Origin: a virus
DNA length: 27,116 nt
Reading direction: 5' to 3' (one strand)
Virus record (IMG/VR): IMGVR_UViG_3300020445_000056
Location: 1 to 27,116 of that record
The position numbers and the translations under genes are program-made. This document shows positions 6,250-23,412 of this stretch, piece after piece. Under the pieces are notes generated by a model that worked only from the letters and a program-made list of their open reading frames with translations, was not told where the DNA came from and made no database searches. Every line of letters begins with the position of its first letter. The first letter of the stretch is position 1.

Positions 6250-6578
6250 AACCGCAGTCTGCCAAAGGAAAGGGAAGAAGATTTCAACAGTGGGTCAGAG
6301 ACCAACTGATAGAGCATAGAGAAGTCCATCCTGAGGACATAGAGTCCAGGAGTATGGGTGCTGGAGGTGAAGACCTCATCATGGCACGTGATGCTAGACA
6401 AAAGTTTCCTTTCAGTGTAGAATGTAAGAATCAAGAGAAGTTAAATGTCTATGAGGCATATGCACAGGCATGTGCTAACGCAGGTGACCACGAGCCTATT
6501 TTATTCATGAAGAAGAATCATAAGAAACCTCTGGTCGTAGTAGATGCTGAATGGTTTATAAAGAATTATGGCAGTTGA
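6246..6578 (+). CDS. Putative PD-(D/E)XK nuclease or Holliday-junction-resolvase-like protein
   Basis: 110 residues beginning KPQSAKGKGRRFQQWVRDQL. The basic N-terminus and helix, then GAGGEDLIM with D43, then FSVECKNQ with E59 and K61, form the D-(x)n-E-x-K core of the restriction-endonuclease-like fold. The following helix (VYEAYAQACANAG) and strand (PILFMKKNHKKPLVVVDA) suit archaeal Hjc/RecU-like resolvases. It may cut branched or foreign DNA; the exact substrate is inferred. It overlaps purN (ATGA) and the next gene by 11 bases. Confidence 0.65.
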   Translation: MKPQSAKGKGRRFQQWVRDQLIEHREVHPEDIESRSMGAGGEDLIMARDARQKFPFSVECKNQEKLNVYEAYAQACANAGDHEPILFMKKNHKKPLVVVDAEWFIKNYGS

Positions 6579-7248
6579 AACGATGTTCTCCATCCCCATC
6601 ATTCACTATCAGGTGAGGGACTGGACAGTAAATAAGAAGAGAATATTAGATGCTCTACCAGATGAGAGTGATTATCTGGAGCCTGATGGTAGTCACTACA
6701 CAGACTTCTTTGAAGAGAGAGACGACAAGGAGACTGAGTTACCAAGTTATGCTGAGACAGTAATTGATATAATTAAACCACACCTAGCAGACTTTACCAA
6801 CAAGAGACGGGTAGAGTTTACTGACATGTGGTTTCAGAAGTATGACAACGGCATGCAGCATGGTATACACAACCATGGACATAGTGGATGGTCTTGTGTA
6901 TTATATGTTGAGTATGATCCTCAGGTGCATCTACCAACTACATTCTACTCTCCATTTAACAATCCCTGGAGTGGTAGACTACAGATATTTGAACCACCTG
7001 TAAGAGAAGGAGACTTAGTTATCTTCCCTTCTACTGTGGCACACAATGCACCAGAGAATAAGTCAGACAAGAGAAGGACTATAGTATCATTTAATATTAG
7101 AGGTAAGGTTGATAAGGTTAAGTATCAGTTGTGGGATGGAGATCCTATGGTATATGTAAAGGAAAGTTTTGCAGAGAATACACCAAAGGTTGCTAAGACT
7201 GGTCCTGGTATAGGTAAAGTAAAAGATCCTTACGCTTTTAAACTATGA
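6568..7248 (+). CDS. 2OG-Fe(II) oxygenase-like protein (first of four)
   Basis: 226 residues. The N-terminus MFSIPIIHYQVRDW is typical of the phage 2OG-Fe(II) oxygenase family (PF13759-like). The metal-binding His lie in QHGIHNHGHSGWS (H101/H103), the distal His is H159 in FPSTVAHNAPEN, and R170 in DKRRTIVSFNI is placed to bind 2-oxoglutarate. Such enzymes hydroxylate or otherwise oxidise a substrate; the substrate is unknown. It overlaps both neighbours and is followed by a second oxygenase. The C-terminal 40 residues (after KVDKVKYQL) extend past the core. Confidence 0.75.
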   Translation: MAVETMFSIPIIHYQVRDWTVNKKRILDALPDESDYLEPDGSHYTDFFEERDDKETELPSYAETVIDIIKPHLADFTNKRRVEFTDMWFQKYDNGMQHGIHNHGHSGWSCVLYVEYDPQVHLPTTFYSPFNNPWSGRLQIFEPPVREGDLVIFPSTVAHNAPENKSDKRRTIVSFNIRGKVDKVKYQLWDGDPMVYVKESFAENTPKVAKTGPGIGKVKDPYAFKL

Positions 7249-8426: not shown

Positions 8427-8456
8427 TTGACAGAAGGATTAGATATGATATATAAT
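8427..8456 (+). promoter_or_regulatory. Consensus sigma70-type promoter before hli
   Basis: TTGACA (8427-8432) and TATAAT (8451-8456) are both perfect consensus boxes with an 18-base spacer. The start site would be near 8463, just before hli at 8481. Host RNA polymerase could read it early in infection. Confidence 0.75.
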
Positions 8457-8480: not shown

Positions 8481-8681
8481 ATGACTAATTCTTCTACAAC
8501 AGTTACTACCGAAGACGGTGGTCGTCAAAATATGTTTGCTTCTGAGCCTCAGATAGAGGTGATGGATGTAGACCAAAGCAAGGAAGCTGAGCTTGCTAAT
8601 GGTCGTTGGGCAATGATAGGATTTGTTGCTGCCATTGGTGCATACATTACAACAGGACAGATTATTCCTGGTCTTTTTTAA
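8481..8681 (+). CDS. hli: High-light-inducible chlorophyll-binding protein
   Basis: 66 residues from ATG 8481; longer upstream frames would include the promoter and leader. The chlorophyll-binding helix is AELANGRWAMIGFVAAIGAY (residues 36-54), with the ExxNGRxAMxGF motif (E37, N40, R42). Such one-helix proteins sit in the thylakoid membrane and protect photosystems under light stress; many cyanophages carry them. The first 28 residues are a polar Ser/Thr-rich head and the end (GQIIPGLF) is short, as usual. It has its own sigma70-type promoter. Confidence 0.96.
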   Translation: MTNSSTTVTTEDGGRQNMFASEPQIEVMDVDQSKEAELANGRWAMIGFVAAIGAYITTGQIIPGLF

Positions 8682-8732: not shown

Positions 8733-8933
8733 ATGGCAGACCTCGCAGTCGATACCAATACTATTTCACCACTCATAGCACTCCTTTGGCTCTTCTATCC
8801 AATGGCAGTGCTTGTTTTAGTTGAGTTGTTTCTTCGTGCTATGAATGGAGATGACGATGATGACGAACCACGTGGTGGAAAGGGTGTGAGGATTAATGAG
8901 CCTGCCTATGCTACTGTACCAGTGGGCACATGA
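8733..8933 (+). CDS. Small single-pass membrane protein
   Basis: 66 residues. One membrane helix (residues 11-36: ISPLIALLWLFYPMAVLVLV then ELFLRAM), then an acidic run DDDDDE and a polar tail (RGGKGVRINEP). The compact helix with a charged tail resembles small photosystem or membrane-adaptor proteins, but I know no family. Its place between hli and the halogenase series suggests a membrane-linked role in the host cell. The stop overlaps the next small start (ATGA). Confidence 0.7.
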   Translation: MADLAVDTNTISPLIALLWLFYPMAVLVLVELFLRAMNGDDDDDEPRGGKGVRINEPAYATVPVGT

Positions 8934-9022
8934 TTAATCAGACGCTCATTAAAATACCAGCAGGGTTGCATGGTCTAATAGAATTTGGTATACTGGTAGC
9001 AGTAGGTATTACCTTTGGTTAA
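8930..9022 (+). CDS. 30-residue membrane micro-protein
   Basis: ATG 8930 (ATGA overlap with the preceding stop) to TAA 9020-9022, which overlaps the next ATG at 9022. The product MINQTLIKIPAGLHGLIEFG then ILVAVGITFG is mostly one hydrophobic segment, a possible single-pass membrane peptide. Tight overlaps on both sides are the main support for real translation. It could instead be a coupling ORF. No family recognised. Confidence 0.5.
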   Translation: MINQTLIKIPAGLHGLIEFGILVAVGITFG

Positions 9023-9666
9023 TGCAGATAACACACTTCACCAGCGGAGATACTTATACGTTCTTCGCACCTAGGTGGGACTATTACATAGCAGAAGATA
9101 AGATAAAGTCTGACCTGAGTATGCTAAGAGCCGACATACTTAGGCAAGAGAAAGCTATCATCGGCAAGTATGAATTTGAAGATGACTGGGGTACGAAACT
9201 AGGACCAAACAGTCTAACTTCTAGGTCAAACAGATATAATTTATTAGATTGGTCGGAGGCACGTCCTCTTAGGCAAGAGATTCGTGAGGCACACGACGAA
9301 TTCGTATCAGTATTTGAGTTTGCTCAGACTGGACCCCTTTATGTCCAGTGCTGGGCTAATGTCATGAGAAAAGGTGAGCAGATACAAATGCACACCCATG
9401 GTAGAGACGCATGGACATATCTTAGTGGACATATATGTGTAGAGGTGGATGGTACCAATACATATTATCAGAATCCTTTTGGTGGAGACCCTTGGGCATC
9501 ACCCAACGAGGTGGGTAAGATAACTTTGTTTCCTACTCACATACCCCACTTCACAGACCGAGTGGACAGTGGGACAAGAATCACAATAGCATTTGACATT
9601 TATACCCAAGAGGGTTATCATAATAGTATAAAGGATGACATGAAGGAGCACTGGATCCAAATATGA
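9022..9666 (+). CDS. 2OG-Fe(II) oxygenase-like protein next to the halogenase
   Basis: 214 residues, PF13759-like. It shows the metal His pair in QMHTHGRDAW (H124, H126), the distal His in FPTHIPHFTDR (H176) and R186 in GTRITIAFDIY for 2-oxoglutarate. A long N-terminal part (1-100) contains the fold's first strands and helices. Some 2OG-Fe(II) enzymes halogenate, but those lose the metal carboxylate; D129 is present here, so hydroxylation is more likely. It shares base 9022 with the 30-residue gene and overlaps the next start (ATGA), placing it in the halogenase series. Confidence 0.75.
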   Translation: MQITHFTSGDTYTFFAPRWDYYIAEDKIKSDLSMLRADILRQEKAIIGKYEFEDDWGTKLGPNSLTSRSNRYNLLDWSEARPLRQEIREAHDEFVSVFEFAQTGPLYVQCWANVMRKGEQIQMHTHGRDAWTYLSGHICVEVDGTNTYYQNPFGGDPWASPNEVGKITLFPTHIPHFTDRVDSGTRITIAFDIYTQEGYHNSIKDDMKEHWIQI

Positions 9667-9920
9667 TCGACGAATGGCGTTTAGATGACGGCAAGTTACA
9701 TGAGAGGGCACTATGTCTGACTTGTTTAACCCGTCGTGGTGTTACAACTACTAGAAAAGTCTACGAGTTTTGCCATGACTTTACTAGGTTAAATAAGTTT
9801 GAAGGTTACATACCAACTGAGGACAACCCTCTAACTGAAGAGGTTGCTCCTTACAATGGTGACTATGTTCTCTTAGCATCTGAAAAAGTAATGGAAGAAT
9901 GGAATAAGTTTCAACGATGA
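9663..9920 (+). CDS. Small protein with CxxC, unknown function
   Basis: 85 residues from ATG 9663. The first third holds CLTC (residues 18-21) and a third Cys at FCHDF, with several basic residues (TRRGVTTTRK), which could bind a metal or pass electrons. The rest is acidic (TEDNPLTEEVAPYNGDY). It is joined by ATGA overlaps to the oxygenase before and the halogenase after, so it may be a partner protein. No family recognised. Confidence 0.65.
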   Translation: MIDEWRLDDGKLHERALCLTCLTRRGVTTTRKVYEFCHDFTRLNKFEGYIPTEDNPLTEEVAPYNGDYVLLASEKVMEEWNKFQR

Positions 9921-11383
9921 AGATAGTTATTGCAGGAGGAGGGTCAGCAGGATGGATGAGTGCAGCAGCACTCGCTAAATCATTCCCTGACTGGGACATT
10001 ACTATAATTGTGGGCGATGAACCTATTGGAGTAGGTGAGTCAACTACCCCACACATCAATCAATACCTATCTTACATGGGTATAAGTGATGCTGACTTCT
10101 TACAGGAAGCACGTGCTACATTCAAAGCAGGGTCTAAGTTTGAAGACTTCTCTGGTATAGGAGAGTCTTTCTTCTATGGTAATGCTCAGTCATTACCTAA
10201 GGGGACACACTACTATCAATGGATGCTTGCTAAAGCAGAGGGGATGAATCCTCCACCATTTATTGATGTCTTCATGCCATTCATGACAGTGGCAGCAGAA
10301 GGCAAGATGCCACTTAATAATCCGAGGCTAGCACCCTATGACCTTAAAAAGGATCGCAGTTTCCACATCGACTCAGCATCATTCTGCAAATATCTTAAAG
10401 AAACTTTCTGTTCTAATGTTAGAGTCATTGATTCTAAAGTTAAGTCGGTATCTTACGGACGAGGACGAGTACAATATCTCACTGTGGAAAGAGGACCGTA
10501 CGACCAAGGGGCAAAGAAGGTTGACGCAGATCTCTATCTCGACTGTACTGGGCAAGCGTCTGCACTAGGTGGTGCTCTGAGCACTTGGGAACCATACGAA
10601 ACCCTAAGCATAGACACTGCTATCGTAAGGAAGGATGAGTATACAGATAAGGATGCACAGATGCATTGTTATACTCATGCTAAAGGTATGTCAGCAGGTT
10701 GGCAGTGGGCTATTCCTACATGGGATTTCATTAGTAGAGGATATGTATTTGCATCTAGGTATCAGACTGAAGAGGATGCTAAGAAAGAATTTGGTGACGG
10801 TAAAGTAATTAAGTTTAGGACAGGTAGATATGATGAGGCATGGACTGGTAACTGTGTTAAGATAGGTCTAGCATATGGTTTTATTGAACCACTAGAGTCA
10901 ACCTCTCTATTCAATACACATCATGGTATCCTTAACCTTATTGATATCCTAGCTGAGACACCTGACTTCGGACAATTCCAGAGAGACAACTACAATTGGA
11001 ATGTCAGTGAGCATATGGATGGGTGGAGAGAATTCGTAGAAGCACATTACTATTACTCCAAGAGAAAGGACACTGACTTCTGGAGATTCCAGACCGATGA
11101 GGTAAAGTATAAGATAGAAGGTAGTCATGAATTCATTCGTCATTACATGACAAGTGATGAGACTATTAGTCCAGAGCAATTCCATCCTATTGTATACATC
11201 CTTGCAGGTGCAGGACATCACACTATTAATAGAAGGACTCATGCATATCATGGTTACCCTGTGAGTATATCTCAGAGGCAGGTTGATGATTGGAGAGAAG
11301 CATATAATATGAGGAAGGAGTTTGCTAAGGGCATGCCTACCATGTATAAATTCTTAAGTGACACATTCCACACGCCATCATAG
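9917..11383 (+). CDS. prnA: Flavin-dependent tryptophan-halogenase-like enzyme
   Basis: 488 residues. It begins with the FAD-binding GGGSAGW (7-13), as in PrnA and RebH. The catalytic Lys is K70 in RATFKAGSKFEDF, and the partner Glu is E327 in FIEPLESTSLFNTHHGI. The flavin-halogenase WxWxIP motif reads GWQWAIPTW (W262, W264). FADH2 and chloride give HOCl, which moves through a tunnel to Lys to halogenate an indole. All key residues are present, so the enzyme could be active; the substrate may be Trp or a peptide. Similar genes occur in cyanophages but their product is not known. The end overlaps the tRNA gene. Confidence 0.88.
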   Translation: MKIVIAGGGSAGWMSAAALAKSFPDWDITIIVGDEPIGVGESTTPHINQYLSYMGISDADFLQEARATFKAGSKFEDFSGIGESFFYGNAQSLPKGTHYYQWMLAKAEGMNPPPFIDVFMPFMTVAAEGKMPLNNPRLAPYDLKKDRSFHIDSASFCKYLKETFCSNVRVIDSKVKSVSYGRGRVQYLTVERGPYDQGAKKVDADLYLDCTGQASALGGALSTWEPYETLSIDTAIVRKDEYTDKDAQMHCYTHAKGMSAGWQWAIPTWDFISRGYVFASRYQTEEDAKKEFGDGKVIKFRTGRYDEAWTGNCVKIGLAYGFIEPLESTSLFNTHHGILNLIDILAETPDFGQFQRDNYNWNVSEHMDGWREFVEAHYYYSKRKDTDFWRFQTDEVKYKIEGSHEFIRHYMTSDETISPEQFHPIVYILAGAGHHTINRRTHAYHGYPVSISQRQVDDWREAYNMRKEFAKGMPTMYKFLSDTFHTPS

Positions 11384-11445
11384 CACAGTGGTAGTGCAGG
11401 GCTTTTGTAAAGCCAAGGTCGGTGGTTCAAATCCTCCTGATGGCA
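11374..11445 (+). tRNA. tRNA-Thr (anticodon UGU)
   Basis: A 72-base cloverleaf: acceptor GCCATCA (11374-11380) pairs with TGATGGC (11438-11444), then discriminator A. D-stem GCAC/GTGC, anticodon stem GGGCT/AGCCA with loop TTTGTAA (anticodon TGT, reads ACA), T-loop TTCAAAT. The anticodon stem has a G-A mismatch at 27:43 and the T-stem a T-T mismatch at 51:63. The first ten bases overlap the halogenase end, whose TAG stop is at 11381-11383. No CCA is encoded. Confidence 0.85.
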
Positions 11446-11448
11446 TTC

Positions 11449-11456
11449 TATAAATA
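11449..11456 (+). promoter_or_regulatory. T4-type late promoter TATAAATA for psbA
   Basis: TATAAATA exactly matches the T4 late promoter consensus. It lies 3 bases after the tRNA and about 143 bases before the psbA start, so psbA would be read by the phage-modified polymerase late in infection, with a long leader. Confidence 0.8.
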
Positions 11457-11599
11457 AACTGAAGGGCAATGTCAATAAGTCCCCCCGCATGGTGCTAAGG
11501 GCCTCCAGTAAGGAGGATATGCACTCTTACTTCCCCCTAACCAAGACCATGGGGTCATAATGTCTTATCATAACAAGTAAACACCGCACTCTTTTTTCA
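11457..11599 (+). promoter_or_regulatory. psbA leader with hairpins, no clear ORF
   Basis: 143 bases between the late promoter and psbA. It contains CCTCC-AGTAA-GGAGG (11502-11516), GACC-ATGG-GGTC (11545-11556) and a C6 run (11481-11486) that could pair with GGGG at 11551-11554. No strong ribosome site sits next to the psbA ATG. The structure suggests control of psbA translation or mRNA stability. Confidence 0.4.
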
Positions 11600-12694
11600 A
11601 TGACTACTCTGCAACGTCAGAGCAGCCCTCTTGCTAATTGGGACGAGTTTTGTAGATGGGTAACATCAACAGAGAATAGAATCTATGTTGGTTGGTTTGG
11701 AGTTCTAATGATTCCTTGCCTGTTAACCGCTGCCACTTGTTTCATCATAGCATTTATCGCTGCACCTCCTGTTGATATCGACGGGATTAGGGAACCAGTT
11801 GCTGGTTCATTAATGTATGGAAACAACATCATCTCTGGTGCTGTTGTCCCTTCAAGCAACGCAATCGGACTACACTTCTATCCCATTTGGGAAGCTGCAT
11901 CACTCGATGAGTGGTTGTATAATGGTGGTCCATATCAGTTAGTAGTATTCCACTTCCTCATTGGTATCTGCGGATACATGGGTAGACAGTGGGAGTTATC
12001 ATACCGTTTAGGTATGCGTCCATGGATCTGTGTAGCATACTCAGCTCCTGTGTCTGCTGCCTTCGCTGTATTCCTTGTGTATCCTTTCGGACAGGGTTCA
12101 TTCTCTGATGGTATGCCTCTAGGTATATCAGGGACATTCAACTTTATGTTTGTCTTCCAAGCAGAGCACAACATATTAATGCACCCCTTCCACATGGCAG
12201 GTGTAGCAGGTATGTTTGGTGGAGCACTCTTCAGTGCTATGCATGGGTCACTTGTTACATCTTCTCTAATCAGAGAGACTACCGAGCAAGAGTCTCAGAA
12301 CTATGGTTACAAGTTTGGTCAAGAAGAAGAGACCTATAACATTGTTGCTGCTCATGGATACTTCGGACGTTTAATCTTCCAGTATGCATCATTCAACAAC
12401 AGTCGAAGTCTTCACTTCTTCCTTGCTGTTTTTCCTGTCGTTGCTATCTGGCTCACCTCAATGGGCATATGCACGATGGCATTCAACCTGAATGGATTTA
12501 ACTTCAACCAGAGTATCTTAGATGCTCAAGGTAAGGTGGTCCCGACATGGGCTGACGTGCTTAACCGTGCCAACCTAGGTATGGAAGTAATGCATGAGCG
12601 TAATGCTCACAACTTCCCGCTAGACTTGGCGGCACTTCCTGAAGATGGATTGCCTACTCGTATTGCACTCACTGCTCCTGCGGCAGTTGGATGA
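11600..12694 (+). CDS. psbA: Photosystem II D1 protein
   Basis: D1 is the PSII reaction-centre subunit that turns over in light; phage psbA keeps photosynthesis going during infection. All key residues align: Y161, D170, H190, H198, H215, H252, S264, H272, H332, E333, H337, D342, A344. Residue 130 is Q (GRQWELSY), the low-light type. The length is 364 residues, against about 360, because the tail after the A344 processing site (LDLA then [20 protein letters not shown]) is 20 residues and unlike the usual host tail. The start [10 protein letters not shown] is standard. An exact late promoter lies upstream and a terminator downstream. Confidence 0.98.
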
Positions 12695-22118: not shown

Positions 22119-22790
22119 ATGTTTAATTATGTTGGTCCTGCTAAGCCTCTAAGGGAGGTGAGCAGCAGGACTCTTGAGCAAGGTCGCTTCTATAAGATTG
22201 ATGACGTTTGGATGCCAAGTGTTACAACTGTTGTCGGACACCAGTCTAAGGCAGGTATACTCAAGTGGCAGGAGCGTGTCGGTTTCACCAAGGCGGAACA
22301 GATACGACGCTCGTCAGCATGGCGTGGCACCCAGTACCATAACCTAGTGGAGAACTATTTAAAAAATGATGTGGAAGAAGTTGAGAAAGGCGAGGGTCTT
22401 CCCACGTACCTTTTTAGGGCTGCTCGTCAGACTCTTGATAGGATTGATAATATTCACGCTATTGAAGCCCCTCTCTTTTCTCATAATCTACGCATTGCTG
22501 GTCGGGTCGATTGCATTGCTGAGTTTGATAATGAGCTTGCTATAATTGATTTCAAGACCACTAAGAGTCTTAAGAAACCAGAGCACCTAGAGAAATTCTT
22601 TGTGCAAGAGGCAGCGTATGCTTACATGTACTATGAATTGACTGGTGTAGAGGTGGACAAACTCGTGACACTATCTGTTGCTGAAGATGGAAGTGTGCAA
22701 GTTGAGCAAAAGTATGATAAGATACCTTATATCGATACACTTATCGATTGGATCAGTGAGTATCATGATGGAGTAAAGGATGCTGCCTAA
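22119..22790 (+). CDS. RecB/MGME1-like PD-(D/E)XK exonuclease
   Basis: 223 residues. The PD-(D/E)XK nuclease motifs are present: H74 in RGTQYHNLVENYL, D131 in GRVDCIAEF, D144-F-K146 in AIIDFKTTKS, and Q163 in VQEAAYAYMY, as in the RecB and mitochondrial MGME1 family. It may trim or recycle ssDNA ends in replication or recombination. It directly follows phoH and overlaps the next gene by 11 bases. Confidence 0.85.
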   Translation: MFNYVGPAKPLREVSSRTLEQGRFYKIDDVWMPSVTTVVGHQSKAGILKWQERVGFTKAEQIRRSSAWRGTQYHNLVENYLKNDVEEVEKGEGLPTYLFRAARQTLDRIDNIHAIEAPLFSHNLRIAGRVDCIAEFDNELAIIDFKTTKSLKKPEHLEKFFVQEAAYAYMYYELTGVEVDKLVTLSVAEDGSVQVEQKYDKIPYIDTLIDWISEYHDGVKDAA

Positions 22791-23412
22791 AAAAGATGAG
22801 ATGCTAGGTATACCTATCTACCGTTTCTATTACGATGATAATGCTAGTGTCTTAGAGGCAGCAAAGAAGTTAAAGTTTAGACCTAACAATACCAATTGGA
22901 TTTGGGAAGGTGTTGATGACAGTGGTGACAGGGGAAGTGACCTCTACAACTACTCAGACTTCGCTGATTTATTCGCATGGATGCAGGACTGCATGGCCGA
23001 AGTTGCTGAAGACATGGGCATGCAAAACAAACTCATCTGCAATGCTGCTTGGGCTAACTTAAACAAGACTCATGAATGGTTCTTCGACCATACACATTAC
23101 AACTGTATGATTAGTAGCAATTACTATTGCTCAGGTAATGCAGAAGACAAGACTCAATGGTTCCATCCCAATCCATACTTCCATTATACTAACATCTATC
23201 CTTTAGGTCAGTTTTCGGAAGACAAATACTTACTTACCTTCACTGAACCAACAGAACCTGGTAAGTTTATTGTATTTCCACCCATGATACGTCATCGTGC
23301 GTGGCCTAACACCAGTGAAGAAGATAGGATTACTATCGCAGCAAACTGGTTCCCTACTGGCAACTTAAATGCTGCTGGTGTTTCTCACCTTAGACTGGAT
23401 GTTATACAATGA
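22780..23412 (+). CDS. 2OG-Fe(II) oxygenase-like protein (fourth)
   Basis: 210 residues, PF13759-like. Metal His in FFDHTHYNCM (H104, H106), distal His H172 in MIRHRAWPN, and R183 in EEDRITIAANW for 2-oxoglutarate. FVxFPPMIRHRAWPNTSEED-type context is standard. An in-frame ATG at 22801 is a possible alternative start. The substrate is unknown; it sits in the DNA-replication cluster, unlike the other three. Confidence 0.75.
   Translation: MLPKKDEMLGIPIYRFYYDDNASVLEAAKKLKFRPNNTNWIWEGVDDSGDRGSDLYNYSDFADLFAWMQDCMAEVAEDMGMQNKLICNAAWANLNKTHEWFFDHTHYNCMISSNYYCSGNAEDKTQWFHPNPYFHYTNIYPLGQFSEDKYLLTFTEPTEPGKFIVFPPMIRHRAWPNTSEEDRITIAANWFPTGNLNAAGVSHLRLDVIQ

Follow-up and report, generated by a model that had tools for sequence, protein, structure and literature searches.

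Flavin-dependent halogenases have been known in cyanophages since the early T4-like cyanophage genomes, and one of them, VirX1, is a useful biocatalyst. An earlier note on the DNA described here, made from the sequence alone, knew of no described pathway. This was incomplete, since cyanophage flavin halogenases have been described (VirX1, and the prnA genes of family T4-GC_212), although, to our knowledge, no natural substrate is known for any of them. Cyanophage prnA genes are distributed sporadically, and the region near psbA is a hot spot for insertions (PMC3037559). They appear also in PMC2984593, and were found in 20 of 153 cyanophages (PMC10452541). VirX1 accepts many aromatic compounds as substrates for halogenation, with iodide preferred to bromide and bromide to chloride, and its active site is large and open (reviewed in PMC8407142).

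The DNA that we analyzed, referred to below as ‘the window’, is a viral record of 27,116 nt (IMGVR_UViG_3300020445_000056). Besides psbA and hli, it carries genes for ribonucleotide reductase, heme oxygenase, thymidylate synthase, PhoH, a single-strand DNA-binding protein and baseplate proteins, and from this content we infer that it is a fragment of a T4-like cyanomyovirus, a virus that infects ocean cyanobacteria. The earlier note drew attention to a series of five genes at 8733-11383, here termed A to E, and all five open reading frames are present with the ATGA and one-base junctions that it described (Table 1). The overlaps are of 4, 1, 4 and 4 nt, and take the form ATGA at A/B, C/D and D/E, and TAATG at B/C. 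About eleven more junctions elsewhere in the 27 kb window overlap or abut (e.g. 6246/6249, 7245/7248, 20421/20424, 23409/23412, 23651/23654 and 25000/25000), and so overlap by itself is no sign that A-E are a special unit. Purifying selection acts on genes A, C, D and E (dN/dS mostly 0.02-0.18); for gene B, with 30 codons, the ratio is too noisy for use.

Table 1. Genes and candidate signals in and around the five-gene series, in window coordinates
Feature	Position	Strand	Basis or remark
Sigma-70-type promoter-like site, TTGACA-18-TATAAT, 12/12	8427..8456	+	consensus match only
hli, high-light-inducible protein	8481..8681	+	phrog_178 1.2e-26; ATG start at 8481
Gene A, small single-span membrane protein with acidic run	8733..8933	+	phrog_7843
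Gene B, 30-residue hydrophobic protein	8930..9022	+	phrog_17067
Gene C, 2OG-Fe(II) oxygenase-fold protein	9022..9666	+	PF13759, phrog_81, structure matches
Gene D, four-helix protein, psbA-upstream family	9663..9920	+	AlphaFold model, family alignment
Gene E, flavin-dependent halogenase	9917..11383	+	PF04820, phrog_2928, VirX1 6QGM, S-MbCM6 54%
tRNA-Thr(TGT)	11374..11445	+	overlaps last 10 nt of E
T4-type late-promoter-like CTATAAATA	11448..11456	+	consensus match; may be chance
psbA, photosystem II D1	11600..12694	+	constant downstream neighbour of E

Judged by its sequence, gene E encodes an intact flavin-dependent halogenase of the known cyanophage, VirX1-like kind. It matches PF04820 over model positions 1-447 of 458 (1.1e-82; 278.7 bits, against a curated cut-off of 21), and the cyanophage PHROG phrog_2928 at 3.9e-125. 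Among solved structures, its best match is VirX1 of cyanophage Syn10 (PDB 6QGM, 1.9e-65), to which it aligns over nearly its full length, with K70 and E327 opposite the catalytic residues of VirX1. The GxGxxG motif is present as G7-G9-G12, and the WxWxIP motif as W262QWAIP267; G7, G9, K70, W262, W264, P267, E327 and S328 are invariant among 17 members of the E clade. The features on which the note had founded its halogenase claim—K70, E327 and WxWxIP—are thus where it placed them, and conserved in the clade. Against relatives that are 96, 81 and 76% identical, dN/dS for E is 0.16-0.18, which argues that the halogenase protein is maintained. The distance from VirX1 (about 30% identity) might suggest that E has lost halogenation, and is now a flavin monooxygenase or an inactive protein, but with the catalytic residues invariant throughout the clade and purifying selection this strong we regard such a loss as extremely unlikely.

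Local alignments of E stop at residue 453 of RebH and residue 415 of PrnA, short of the C-terminal part in which the tryptophan-binding residues lie. Free tryptophan in particular is probably not the substrate of E. Most likely, by analogy, it acts on a small aromatic compound as VirX1 does, although VirX1 is distant enough at this level of identity that its chemistry may not carry over. As for a possible origin of E in a cyanobacterial host, the bacterial relatives among the 80 matches listed are at most 34% identical to it, and none of these 80 is cyanobacterial by title.

To collect relatives of the locus, we searched viral contigs with the halogenase and, separately, with D alone. The close clade of halogenases, 53-100% identical to E, falls into 36 clusters at 95% identity. 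In every cluster that could be scored (31 of 31), the first gene recognised downstream of E is psbA; the contigs of the other five end before psbA. D precedes E in 35 of the 36, with one other gene intervening in three of those 35. Only 12 clusters have a 2OG gene in the series, nine with the C type before D and three with another type between D and E, and the clade tree requires no fewer than four changes in 2OG content. More broadly, a 2OG gene directly adjoins 40 of 140 viral halogenase genes (28.6%), compared with 99 of 395 other large ORFs at the same loci (25.1%), and so halogenases as a group show no clear excess over background. A gene resembling phage lysozyme (T4-GC_942, PF18013; L001 3411-4004) lies before D-E or E in most clade members, occupying the place that genes B and C hold in the window.

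Genes A and B have one hydrophobic stretch each, in keeping with their earlier description as small membrane proteins. A is present in 34 phage records, hli precedes the gene series in relatives too, and phage P-RSM1 has the order hli-A-B-psbA with no halogenase anywhere in its genome. A and B are parts of a common hli-A-B-psbA block, with A a generic hli-associated cyanophage gene.

Gene D is predicted to form four helices (AlphaFold mean pLDDT 89.9). No PDB fold matched it with an E-value below 0.001, BFVD gave weak matches only, to uncharacterised cyanophage proteins, and no carrier-protein family matched. Besides Met1, the only invariant residues in the family alignment are Arg15, Tyr34 and Phe36. 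The label ‘CxxC protein’ given to D earlier has to be dropped; CxxC is no feature of the family, L010, L016 and others having lost the second Cys, and this rules out a CxxC redox protein beside the halogenase.

What, then, is D? When the D proteins that adjoin E served as seeds for a scan of contigs, E lay behind D in 67 of 68 cases, and the 68th contig ended after D. This count at first backed D as the exclusive partner of the halogenase, an idea since weakened by loci in which D stands directly before psbA without E. Such loci occur in four isolates, P-TIM40 (L152), S-WAM1 (L150), S-SZBM1 (L151) and P-RSM6 (L294), and, with no halogenase between, in 29 contigs, several of them near-duplicates, from a scan seeded with the D proteins of P-TIM40, S-WAM1 and S-SZBM1. 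From them it follows that D is in the main a psbA-upstream gene. The very stable adjacency could nonetheless reflect joint action of D and E, and a specific two-protein system, with D as helper, carrier or substrate protein of E, would also fit the position of D in 35 of 36 clusters and its low dN/dS among close relatives (0.02-0.04). We think such a system unlikely, given the psbA-linked D genes without E, the retention of E without an adjoining D in S-MbCM6 and L023, the wider relatives of D in phages without a halogenase (S-T4, S-WAM2 and S-BM3), and the want of a carrier-family match or a confident PDB match for D. All four of the isolates with D-psbA carry another flavin halogenase elsewhere in the genome. 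This is a point on the side of a D-E system; a strict rule that D co-occurs with some halogenase in each genome fails in the wider relatives of D, however, and the halogenase in these four isolates is a small, unexplained coincidence.

The assignment of gene C holds at the level of fold. C scores 30 bits against PF13759 (2OG-FeII_Oxy_5; curated cut-off 27), it matches phrog_81, and its AlphaFold model (pLDDT 89.2) resembles 2rg4 (Z 17.3), 3bvc (Z 17.3) and PHD2 (Z 14.9), all of which points to a double-stranded beta-helix, prolyl-hydroxylase-like 2OG-Fe(II) oxygenase fold. 2OG oxygenases usually have an HxD/E...H iron triad, and a distal Arg for 2OG. The invariant residues of C are H124, H126, H176 and R186, with no carboxylate at the +2 position. 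HxH occurs in place of HxD/E in the PF13759 proteins of the window, at 9022-9666 and 6568-7248, and so a three-His iron site is possible in these proteins. An additional 2OG-Fe(II) oxygenase, at 22780-23412, adjoins an exonuclease gene; such genes are common in the window.

The five genes had been read as one unit that makes a halogenated and hydroxylated product. We reject this reading. Contig L011 has the order A-B-D-E, with C cleanly missing, and the 112 residues of halogenase that it covers are 96% identical to E; in 24 of 36 clusters, two thirds of the clade, the series lacks a 2OG gene; the 2OG adjacency of viral halogenases (28.6%) stands against a background of 25.1%; and there are loci with D ahead of psbA but no E. 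In relatives, then, the genes come apart, which the note had named as grounds for refutation: A and B are found without C-E, D without E, and C, which L011 and most of the clade do without, is separable too. The enzymes of a dedicated biosynthetic cluster should be conserved together, and these are not.

The same view narrowed to a dedicated unit, in which C and E, with D, make the hydroxylated, halogenated product, has some points in its favor. The order C-D-E recurs with short overlaps or spacers in nine clusters, a different 2OG gene lies between D and E in three more, and with at least four changes on the tree an oxygenase may have been gained repeatedly. We still judge this unit very unlikely, since most of the clade does without the oxygenase, L011 lacks precisely C while keeping its halogenase, 2OG adjacency is at background across viral halogenases, and the nearest isolate relative of C is in S-RSM4, the genome of which is without any halogenase. 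C is best explained as an exchangeable 2OG oxygenase cassette with a role of its own, and, with the order C-D-E recurring in nine clusters, some co-selection of C may occur.

Candidate signals frame the series. A sigma-70-like site lies upstream of hli-A-B-C-D-E, at 8427-8456, and the only exact match to CTATAAATA in the window, at 11448, lies between E and psbA. A single hli-A-B-C-D-E transcript, and a separate late start for psbA, would fit these positions. The tRNA-Thr(TGT) gene is absent from the closest relatives, L008-L010, whose halogenases end differently, and looks like a recent insertion at the 3' end of E. The non-coding leader of psbA, at 11460-11585, is strongly conserved: L008 has an almost identical sequence, and L010 a well-preserved one. 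It matches the RNA PhotoRC-II only weakly (17.7 bits, cut-off 39), and so is possibly a divergent form of that RNA.

The explanation that we favor, and consider likely, is that a single functional halogenase of the VirX1 kind has been inserted between D and psbA, that C is exchangeable, and that the five genes are neighbors and not a pathway. E would be a two-component flavin-dependent halogenase, lodged within the variable hli-psbA hot spot, after D and before psbA, and probably transcribed together with its upstream neighbors; A, B and D would be members of the general hli-psbA neighborhood. As in other enzymes of its family, E would bind reduced FAD from a host reductase, and O2 would convert this to the C4a-hydroperoxide. 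Attack on the hydroperoxide by halide would yield hypohalous acid, and this would pass through a tunnel to K70, next to E327, where an electron-rich aromatic small molecule would be halogenated. In the simplest history, the halogenase entered once between D and psbA, although halogenase loss in the other D-psbA lineages may be the alternative.

The constancy with which E directly precedes psbA could instead reflect function, with E halogenating a photosynthetic protein or pigment, or a virion protein; the large, open active site of VirX1 (PMC8407142) is consistent with such a target. But the region near psbA is a general insertion hot spot (PMC3037559), other cyanophage halogenases are located elsewhere, often by structural genes, and we found no protein-substrate signature. 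A function of this sort is quite improbable. A long shot, more specific still, is that the halogenase clade fixed between D and psbA is part of a module for the takeover of photosynthesis, in which E, with reduced flavin of photosynthetic origin and D as helper, halogenates a pigment, a quinone-like compound or a photosystem protein during infection.

In sum, E is a viral flavin halogenase with its motifs intact; enzymes of its kind were known already, and so was the hot spot near psbA in which it lies. What is new and most useful is that its clade keeps a constant address, directly before psbA, in marine contigs and in the isolate S-MbCM6. This address suggests when the clade is expressed, and S-MbCM6 is a culturable phage in which a halogenated product could be sought, though D is not beside its E. 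There is a warning here, too: in genomes such as these, short overlaps and a neighboring oxygenase are not enough to make a pathway.

Among the known halogenases, the tryptophan halogenase of Synechococcus phages S-MbCM6 and S-MbCM25 (T4-GC_212) is 54% identical to E and shares its place upstream of psbA. It differs in being preceded by a phage-lysozyme-like gene (T4-GC_942), with no A-D series. The prnA-type genes of the cyanomyoviruses P-SSM2, Syn9, S-SSM7, S-PM2 and P-TIM40 and of the pelagiphage HTVC008M belong to the same Pfam family and have the same sporadic distribution as auxiliary genes, but they are only about 24-31% identical to E and occupy other genome positions. The S-PM2 match (L212, NC_006820.1, 121319-122608) spans one in-frame TAA, and this copy may be decaying or mis-sequenced. 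RebH and PrnA, the tryptophan 7-halogenases, share the fold family and the catalytic Lys and Glu with E, but local alignment halts before their C-terminal part. VirX1, finally, is like E a viral flavin-dependent halogenase, alignable end to end, with the same Lys/Glu pair and the GxGxxG and WxWxIP motifs. It is only about 30% identical to E, and in Syn10 the neighbors of its gene are another halogenase and a stretch of genes, some with gp37/gp38-like labels; psbA does not adjoin it, as it does E.
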